Below are positions 25,052 to 32,828 of a DNA stretch of 64,000 nt, one piece after another. Both the position numbers and the translations under genes were made by a program. Origin of the DNA: Glutamicibacter nicotianae (GTDB lineage: Bacteria > Actinomycetota > Actinomycetes > Actinomycetales > Micrococcaceae); NCBI RefSeq assembly GCF_006539525.1, contig NZ_BJNE01000002.1, forward strand, positions 62,001 to 126,000, in the 5' to 3' direction. The first letter of the stretch is position 1, and every line of letters starts with the position of its first letter. The notes below the pieces were generated by a model. That model saw nothing but the letters and a program-made list of their open reading frames with translations. It was not told where the DNA came from and ran no database searches.

Positions 25052-25182
25052 CGGGGCTCCGTTTCGTCAGGTGTCCCAGGGAAGGAAAGTGGGAACCCGT
25101 CTACGTTATCGCACCGGGGGATGCCTGCGCCCGGAGATGTCGGAGATCTGCGCTACACGAGGCGAACAGGAAGCTTAAATTC
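25052..25182. other. Leader of the SulP gene
   Basis: No gene is seen. On the minus strand this is the stretch between the first hairpin element and the SulP start codon, so it should include the 5' untranslated region. Confidence 0.4.
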
Positions 25183-25250
25183 GAAATCCCGGCGAATTGC
25201 TTCGCCGGGATTTCTCGATCATCACTCGCACCTTCATGAGGTATTTACCA
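25183..25250. repeat. Hairpin-plus-constant-tail element, copy 1
   Basis: A perfect 14-bp stem (arms 25183-25196 and 25201-25214, loop TTGC) is followed after four bases by a constant tail, TCATCACTCGCACC then TTCATGAGGTATTTACC. The tail contains its own small stem ACCT-TCATG-AGGT. The same tail occurs at 25441 and 25903 after hairpins of different stem sequence. Confidence 0.85.
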
Positions 25251-25267
25251 ATATAGGAGGCGAAGCT

Positions 25268-25330
25268 ATGCCGGTGCTGAGCGCTGACTGCAGATTTGGA
25301 GAAAACTGTGCCGTCGGTAGACGGAAATAG
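25268..25330 (+). CDS. Possible 20-residue peptide after copy 1
   Basis: An ATG at 25268 has a near-perfect ribosome binding site (AGGAGG, seven bases away) directly downstream of the copy-1 tail. The frame encodes 20 residues, MPVLSADCRFGENCAVGRRK, and then TAG. No relative is known to me. Very short frames arise by chance, so this is only a candidate leader peptide. Confidence 0.25.
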   Translation: MPVLSADCRFGENCAVGRRK

Positions 25331-25400
25331 TTTCCATGACCCGCCTGCAGTTCGCGGTTTCGAAAATTGCTGGAAGCAGGCGAATGGTTTTGGATACAGG

Positions 25401-25473
25401 AACTGGCACTGTCGCAAGACCGACAGTGCCAGTTTCCGCGTCATCACTCGCACCTTCATGAGGTACTTACAAC
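25401..25473. repeat. Hairpin-plus-constant-tail element, copy 2
   Basis: A perfect 14-bp stem (25401-25414 and 25421-25434, loop CAAGAC) with a sequence unrelated to copy 1 is followed after six bases by the tail at 25441-25473. The tail has one or two base changes from copy 1 and continues TTACAACTCTAGAGCGG, which resembles the continuation of copy 3. Confidence 0.85.
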
Positions 25474-25571
25474 TCTAGAGCGGCAGTCTGTGGATGCGAT
25501 AAGCATGCACTGCGCGTAGGCCATGCATCGGGCAGGATGCTTCTGGTTAGCCAGCAACTCCGGCTGGTGAA

Positions 25572-25859
25572 TTGAGCCATGCCCTGTGCCTGGATAATTC
25601 AACCCTGCAGCGCCAGGTGACCGCGGCCATCAAGGACGGATACCTGGAACGCATTGCCGATCCCCAGGGAAATGTCGCCCGCAAGATCTGCCTGACCGCG
25701 CTGGGCGCCGAGCGGCTGTCGGATTCCCGTGCGCAGTCGATTGCTTCGCTGGAGCAGATCCTGGGGGATTGGAGCTGCGCGGAAATCGAGCAGTTCGCCA
25801 AGTACCTGAATCGCTTCAACAGCTCGATCGAAGAGTACAGCGAAGCCAAAAGGGCTTAA
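25572..25859 (+). pseudogene. C-terminal fragment of a MarR-family regulator
   Basis: The frame reads LDNSTLQRQVTAAIKDGYLE then RIADPQGNVARKICLTALGA, the recognition helix and wing of MarR regulators, and a C-terminal dimer helix. A full MarR is about 140-150 residues; the first 50 or so are missing and the upstream sequence does not continue the fold. The piece cannot dimerise normally. Its stop codon abuts hairpin copy 3. Confidence 0.65.
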
Positions 25860-25861
25860 AG

Positions 25862-25935
25862 AGAAGTTCCCGTTGGGCAATATCCAACGGGAACTTCTAC
25901 GATCATCACTCGCACCTTCAAGAGGTGTTTACAAC
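25862..25935. repeat. Hairpin-plus-constant-tail element, copy 3
   Basis: A perfect 15-bp stem (25862-25876 and 25884-25898, loop of seven) follows the MarR fragment by two bases. After four bases comes the tail at 25903-25935. Its small stem has changed in the loop (TTCAAG for TTCATG) and gained one pair (CACCT-AGGTG). Confidence 0.85.
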
Positions 25936-26113
25936 ACTACTGGCGGATTCTGTGCCGTCCCTTTGGCTCAGCTACGCATATTCGATGCTTCCGCACAGGC
26001 AAGGTACACAGAATGCCGTTGGGCGAAATGCACATAGATCCACGGGCCGACCGGCACGAAACTTGGTCAAATTTCCATAGGCCCGCGAGCCGCTTCTCCT
26101 TATGCTGGGAAGC

Positions 26114-32473: not shown

Positions 32474-32691
32474 GTTCCACCTATCCTGCCTATTCGCCGT
32501 GAACAGCCATCCTATTCGGAAGCTGCGCAGTTCCCGAGTTCAAATTTCGTCATGCAAGTGTCATATGAAGGCCGCGCAGCCATCGATCAGGCAAGCAGGT
32601 GGTTCGAAGATGACGTATTTTGTCCTGCCGTTCCCTCGCATGACAGTGCCCTTCCGTGACTGCTGCCGGCAGTGGTTGACTCGGAGCACAA
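32474..32691. other. Divergent promoter region upstream of the riboswitch
   Basis: No gene is supported. It must hold promoters for the SdpI-like gene (leftward) and for the riboswitch-led operon (rightward). A TTGACT at 32677 is a possible -35 element. Confidence 0.35.
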
Positions 32692-32778
32692 CCCATCCAG
32701 AGCGGCTGAGAGACCTGGCTCCGCGACGCCGCAGCAAGTCTGCATCCCGCAGGTAGTGCTAACGCCAGGATCGATGGA
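32692..32778 (+). promoter_or_regulatory. SAM riboswitch (S-box / SAM-I type)
   Basis: The sequence carries the S-box core in order: P1 arm CCATC (32693), AGAGCGGCTGAGAGA, CCTGGCTCCGCGACGCCGC, AGCAA, a P3 stem CTGC-ATCCC-GCAG, then GTGCTAACGCCAGGA and the closing P1 arm GATGG (32777). GCGGC pairs with GCCGC as in stem P2. The usual GCAACC reads GCAAGT, a small deviation. The monooxygenase start codon lies 51 bases further on. S-boxes switch off sulfur and methionine genes when SAM is plentiful. Confidence 0.85.
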
Positions 32779-32828
32779 ATCGCAGGGACCCTGCGTCCTT
32801 CGGAACCTGCAACGCAAGGGAGAAGAAG

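Follow-up and report, generated by a model that had tools for sequence, protein, structure and literature searches.

Introduction

The closest described counterparts of the locus analyzed here come from streptococci, which belong to a different phylum than the Micrococcaceae. According to PMC3091779, the csRNAs of the streptococcal CiaRH system are several related short RNAs per genome, each with a terminator stem-loop and a conserved unpaired stretch for pairing with mRNAs, and the CiaR sites before csRNA genes are an 11-bp direct repeat that ends 10 nt before the -10 element. Among actinobacteria, Mcr7 of M. tuberculosis (PMC4038636) is a PhoP-dependent noncoding RNA under an OmpR-type regulator. 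Another actinobacterial small RNA with hairpins is 6C RNA (RF01066), which contains two hairpins with C-rich loops.

Here, we analyze a stretch of 64,000 nucleotides from Glutamicibacter nicotianae (the window), in which a preliminary description had noted three variable hairpins followed by a constant tail. We propose, at a probability of about 0.75, that the three copies are genes for trans-acting small RNAs (sRNAs) that are driven by an OmpR/PhoB-type regulator, end at their own terminators, and pair with mRNAs including the leader of an McdR-type MerR gene.

Results

The preliminary description gave three perfect stems of 14, 14, and 15 bp, and we located these at 25183-25214, 25401-25434, and 25862-25898. 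The shared tail was verified as a 24-nt core at plus-strand positions 25219, 25441, and 25903, which has no mismatches among the copies and occurs in 0 of 100 shuffles of the window, but the end TTTACAAC is exact only in copy 3, with CTTACAAC in copy 2 and TTTACCAA in copy 1. Likewise, hairpin and tail are both present as described, but their order is reversed relative to the predicted transcript, since the RNA, read on the minus strand, carries the variable hairpin at its 3' end.

On that strand, each copy appears to be a compact gene with a terminator-type hairpin whose sequence changes freely. In copy 1 (25178-25242, minus strand, predicted RNA ends), a 5' ACCTC mini-hairpin accompanies the core GGTGCGAGTGATGA at 25232-25219 and a terminator-type hairpin with arms at 25201-25214 and 25183-25196; its -10 element, TATATT, was placed by family alignment at 25250-25255, and boxes of the CNCAG type with an 11-bp period (TGCAG, CTCAG, and CATAG) occupy 25266-25292, all on the minus strand. 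Copy 2 (25396-25464, minus strand, predicted ends) has the mini-hairpin, the core at 25454-25441, and hairpin arms at 25421-25434 and 25401-25414, with the -10 element TAGAGT at 25472-25477 and boxes CGCAG, CTTAT (degenerate), and CACAG at 25488-25514 on the same strand. The corresponding features of copy 3 (25855-25926, minus strand, predicted ends) are the mini-hairpin, the core at 25916-25903, hairpin arms at 25884-25898 and 25862-25876, the minus-strand -10 element TAGTGT at 25934-25939, and minus-strand boxes CGTAG, CAAAG, and CACAG at 25950-25976. Each window copy has two or three good boxes and not more. The predicted RNAs of copies 1, 2, and 3 fold far better than shuffled sequences (z scores of -5.1, -6.0, and -5.1, respectively). 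Within the conserved stretch GGUGCGAGUGAUGA, the GAGUGAUGA part is mostly unpaired in the best structures of copies 1 and 2; in the best structure of copy 3, the mini-hairpin is absorbed and some of the core is paired. With a sequence model (R1), we counted five copies in the host genome: the three in the window, a fourth 45 kb further on, and a diverged fifth on another contig.

For a family alignment (A1), we collected the exact 11-mer GTGCGAGTGAT at 101 distinct sites, kept the 93 with CCT at most 18 nt upstream, and added back one locus of a relative (L021) to reach 94 copies; four second cores of tandem pairs, a diverged copy (L045), and two unrelated sites (L080 and L105) were left out. 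Because copies were selected by the exact 11-nt core and CCT, which inflates conservation of the core and mini-hairpin, invariance in A1 is partly built in. As a looser check, 18 of 20 further model matches that were found without the selection pattern retain the 11-mer.

The comparison establishes a common minus-strand layout: boxes spaced by 11 bp, a TAnnnT -10 element, about 7 nt, an ACCT-loop-AGGT mini-hairpin with a loop that varies in length among copies, the core, and the hairpin. As expected of a trans-acting sRNA, the copies appear to have promoters of their own, with a -10 element in 92 of 94; TAnnnT stands 22-27 nt before GTGCGAG in these copies, at 24 nt in 56 of them. After alignment on the -10 element, CNCAG repeats were found at -48, -37, -26, and -15, exactly 11 bp apart, amounting to up to four boxes, the last of which ends 10 nt before the -10 element. 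The best-kept promoter positions include A -12 (98%), A -34 (92%), G -44 (89%), and G -22 (86%), in a count in which the -10 positions are fixed by construction. A stem of at least 8 bp lies downstream of the core in 89 of 93 copies compared with 6 of 93 shuffled sequences. U-runs 3' of the hairpins are modest (mean of 4.6 T in 12 nt). A predicted terminator and independence of neighboring genes, both expected of a trans-acting sRNA, were found together with the candidate promoter. We also observed, in genus g4 (L071, L072, and L075), that the core is doubled head-to-tail within one RNA with a 15-nt period.

For the preliminary description, a tail restricted to a single locus in one strain would have counted against the observation. 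All 18 Glutamicibacter genomes examined contain one to seven matches each to the 24-mer at three or fewer mismatches, and copies were confirmed by reading or by R1 match in 11 inspected Micrococcaceae genera (g1, g4, g5, g10, g17, g18, g20, g25, g28, g31, and g32) of the 32 in the sample. The layout was seen in 27 of 30 loci of one set of relatives and 14 of 16 of another. Searching named genomes for the core together with CCTC gave at least 118 stretches, 80 of them among the matches listed. R1 matched 70 of these 80 listed loci, comprising 68 of 68 with Micrococcaceae titles and 2 of the 12 others, with some of the 80 being copies from which R1 was built. R1-positive taxa were Arthrobacter, Paenarthrobacter, Pseudarthrobacter, Paeniglutamicibacter, Glutamicibacter, Galactobacter, Pseudoglutamicibacter, Zhihengliuella, Zafaria, Micrococcus, Kocuria, and Auritidibacter, along with unnamed members of the Micrococcaceae, and their assignment to the family was checked. 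The remaining 10 of the 80 listed loci are from scattered phyla and have the core without the promoter, with one weak partial R1 match. Full matches to promoter and core were observed in two records with titles of distant taxa, Sporosarcina REN13 (L302) and the Acidobacteria MAG G2_11 (L320), which are perhaps contaminating contigs.

A class-wide R1 search of 246 genomes with strict filters gave good scores only in the two Micrococcaceae; elsewhere in the class, there were three weak matches (E values of 0.002-0.007), two of which covered the promoter part only. In two weakly matching loci from other actinobacterial families (L155 and L153), we observed CCAG-type boxes and a -10 element before unrelated protein genes, and these boxes may mark wider use of the regulator. 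A 14-mer at one or fewer mismatches was found in 189 of 197 genomes of the family, a count that we set aside as evidence because, by our own arithmetic, chance gives about one per genome.

Membership in a known Rfam family would likewise have counted against the preliminary description. Rfam searches yielded nothing at the gathering score at the window loci or in ten loci of relatives, and the best subthreshold match (27.9 bits against a cutoff of 58) was on the plus strand over a terminator. Our first guess was 6C RNA because relatives in some other genera have C-rich loops. The two C-rich-loop hairpins of 6C RNA are absent from the window copies, and the Rfam 6C model had no match at these loci while scoring above its cutoff in 32 of 60 class genomes as a control; 6C RNA was therefore rejected. 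Literature searches found no description of this RNA and no sRNA study of Micrococcaceae, and the RNA family of the Micrococcaceae apparently has been undescribed so far.

By analogy, the CNCAG layout resembles a promoter layout for an OmpR-type response regulator, as in CiaR-driven csRNAs. The sequences of the boxes differ: the csRNA box is TTTAAG-N5-TTTAAG, whereas ours is CNCAG in up to four units. The nearest reported boxes that we found are the M. tuberculosis PhoP box, TCACAGC-N4-TCACAGC (PMC4832192), and the complement of the C. glutamicum PhoR motif, TTCACAGG-N3 (PMC3353115). MtrA was rejected as the regulator, as its reported boxes differ from CNCAG. A three-box search of the host genome recovered 30 sites compared with 6 for a reversed control. 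Because only one of the five sRNA promoters and a doubtful site (L141, 2 nt off) were recovered with a -10 element, no wider regulon backs the idea of this regulator, and we rejected a regulon built from these sites.

One pstS promoter of the host genome, at 2430-2760 on the minus strand of L120, contains GTTAACC-TTCT-GTTCACC, a PHO box of the Streptomyces type, for which the consensus GTTCACC-N4 is given in PMC4832192; this box differs from the TCACAGC-N4-TCACAGC box reported there for PhoP, the regulator of Mcr7. Since the pstS promoter has this GTTCACC-type box, the phosphate regulator PhoP is less likely to act on the sRNA promoters. On L120, the CNCAG box matrix reached a best three-unit score of 12.7 (background maxima had a median of 9.8, and the third highest of 60 was 13.2), which is within background and yet falls on that pstS promoter on the opposite strand. 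Nothing unusual was seen with this matrix on L119, which contains the other pstS.

To find targets, we searched the 18 Glutamicibacter genomes for exact complements of the core and read the sites outside the sRNA genes, among which the leader of a MerR-family gene was the single recurring class. By Pfam, the gene order is MerR, bifunctional nuclease (PF02577), and MerR, with the second MerR gene as the target, and this order matches that of ftsR, cg1632, and cg1633 as described in PMC6683498. Upstream of the target gene lies CGACACGC, which has been reported as the WhiB2 motif of mcdR. We take cg1633 to correspond to Rv1830/McdR and call the target gene McdR-type.

In the 18 leaders of the genus, obtained by protein search, contiguous pairing with the 24-nt 5' part of the RNA spans 13-16 pairs in 18 of 18 when G.U pairs are allowed, and 13 of the 18 contain an exact complement of 10-14 nt. 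G006, G007, G013, G014, and G015 fail the exact test through a single A-to-G substitution that still leaves a G.U pair, and they pass only with wobble. Over a 14-nt site, 18 of 21 changed cells keep pairing and the three breaks are all at end positions, a substitution pattern that is weak evidence if only transitions are counted. Mean identity is 0.93 over the 11-nt site compared with approximately 0.35-0.5 on either side; the 5' end of the leader (0.82) and the ribosome-site region (about 0.9) are also conserved. Duplex energies range from -25.5 to -30.2 kcal/mol, and 3-10 of 2,500 random windows of the genus pair as strongly. These comparisons establish conserved complementarity and make the McdR-type leader a predicted target that is firm at the sequence level in Glutamicibacter.

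The predicted site lies about 60-67 nt before the mcdR start codon, far from the ribosome site. We did not find consistent refolding of the mcdR start region across the 18 leaders, and pairing of the target site with the start codon, as proposed by RNAalifold, was rejected as inconsistent across them.

Among other genera, 58 genomes have the gene, and we read 45 distinct genomes (47 loci, with two genomes read twice). Eight of the 45 have an exact match at a shuffle P of ≤0.012, six of these at 38-50 nt from a -10-like element and two without that anchor; with wobble allowed, 1 of 47 loci (L287) has a run of at least 9 at a P of <0.05. The matches are suggestive of the McdR-type leader as a predicted target in genera g4, g11, g12, g18, and g23. 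No such match was seen in most of the other genera read, where the RNA must consequently act on other targets or on none. Two more exact complements of the core were each observed once, at L224 next to the Shine-Dalgarno sequence of a gene that looks DUF485-like by eye and at L181 within codons 4-7 of a gene that looks LemA-like by eye; these are possible further targets.

Discussion

Of the explanations raised in the preliminary description, a family of small RNAs has gained support, as a candidate promoter, an RNA 5' part, and a hairpin proper to each copy recur in a multicopy family. As we picture the system, a putative OmpR/PhoB-type response regulator would bind the direct repeats of CNCAG spaced by 11 bp and bring polymerase to the TAnnnT -10 element. 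Several copies would then produce an RNA of approximately 65-75 nt, composed of the 5' mini-hairpin, the conserved GGUGCGAGUGAUGA, and an intrinsic terminator in which selection may act on structure alone. The conserved stretch would pair with mRNAs, with the 5' leader of the McdR-type MerR gene as the best-supported target in Glutamicibacter, and pairing 60-67 nt before the mcdR start could lead to either repression or activation. In this way, the system may link two-component signaling to the control of cell division.

The parallel with csRNAs extends to copy number, the terminator stem-loop, the repeat period and its distance from the -10 element, and the conserved unpaired stretch. A difference from csRNAs, in addition to the boxes, is that our predicted target site is in the leader and theirs is at the Shine-Dalgarno sequence; the csRNAs and Mcr7 were compared with our RNA by description. 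We give roughly even odds to a csRNA-like system having arisen independently in the Micrococcaceae, with two-component-driven copies of a seed RNA pairing with the leader of an McdR-type checkpoint regulator. The fixed stretch of the RNA matches the beginning of the mRNA for a regulator thought to control cell division, and in such a system actinobacterial cell division would be under posttranscriptional control by a multicopy seed RNA. Since the seed is exact, the type of regulator is predicted, and the predicted target is genus-wide, each step is testable.

An unlikely alternative to trans-acting sRNA genes is that a transcription factor binds the core as DNA, shortly past the start site both here and in the mcdR leader, with short transcripts being incidental. 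A double-stranded motif works in either orientation, and the core would lie at about +11 to +24 here, counted from a predicted start, and some 35-40 nt inside the mcdR leader. However, with respect to transcription, the core is in the opposite orientation in 18 of 18 leaders, a terminator-type hairpin follows it in nearly all copies, and the length of the mini-hairpin loop varies. The retention of pairing by G.U at changed target positions, with breaks only at the ends, also argues against a DNA site, weakly so if only transitions are counted.

The genomic surroundings bear on trans-acting sRNA genes and on the other two explanations of the preliminary description. We inspected 16 contexts by eye and found the following gene to be convergent in 12 of them, codirectional in 3, and unclear in 1. 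Copies stand in tandem ahead of a SulP transporter gene on the same strand in the window and in one relative, at the corresponding locus (L021), as a cis-acting leader or attenuator for SulP would. SulP was not seen in the other 14 contexts, where copies adjoin proC/ppx, thiC, moaE, MFS, thiolase, and further genes; because neighbors vary in this way and each copy ends in its own hairpin, we hold a SulP leader to be very improbable. The copies are equally improbable as termini of a mobile element or as recombination sites directed at terminators. Tandem copies, a variable number per genome, and an adjoining hairpin would fit such elements, but copies within a genome mostly share one orientation and one region, the promoter is conserved together with the copies, the recurring unit is the promoter plus the RNA 5' part, and inspection of the 16 contexts by eye revealed no transposase or recombinase. 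Least probable is a short leader peptide or small protein beginning M-K-V-R-V-M. The K-V-R-V-M reading noted earlier does exist, and one 94-amino-acid frame with this start spans copies 2 and 1, but it is probably not coding because other copies have TTG in place of its ATG or lack the codon. Past the core, moreover, the sequence is not conserved.

Among the window neighbors, Pfam named SulP and glycerate kinase only. Between sRNA copies 2 and 3, and convergent with copy 3, which is placed right behind its end, an open reading frame at 25572-25859 on the plus strand had no Pfam match; by eye, it resembles the C-terminal part of a MarR regulator and is possibly a gene remnant. Elsewhere in the window, the Rfam search detected a SAM riboswitch (RF00162) at 32690-32780 on the plus strand with a score of 53.1 bits.
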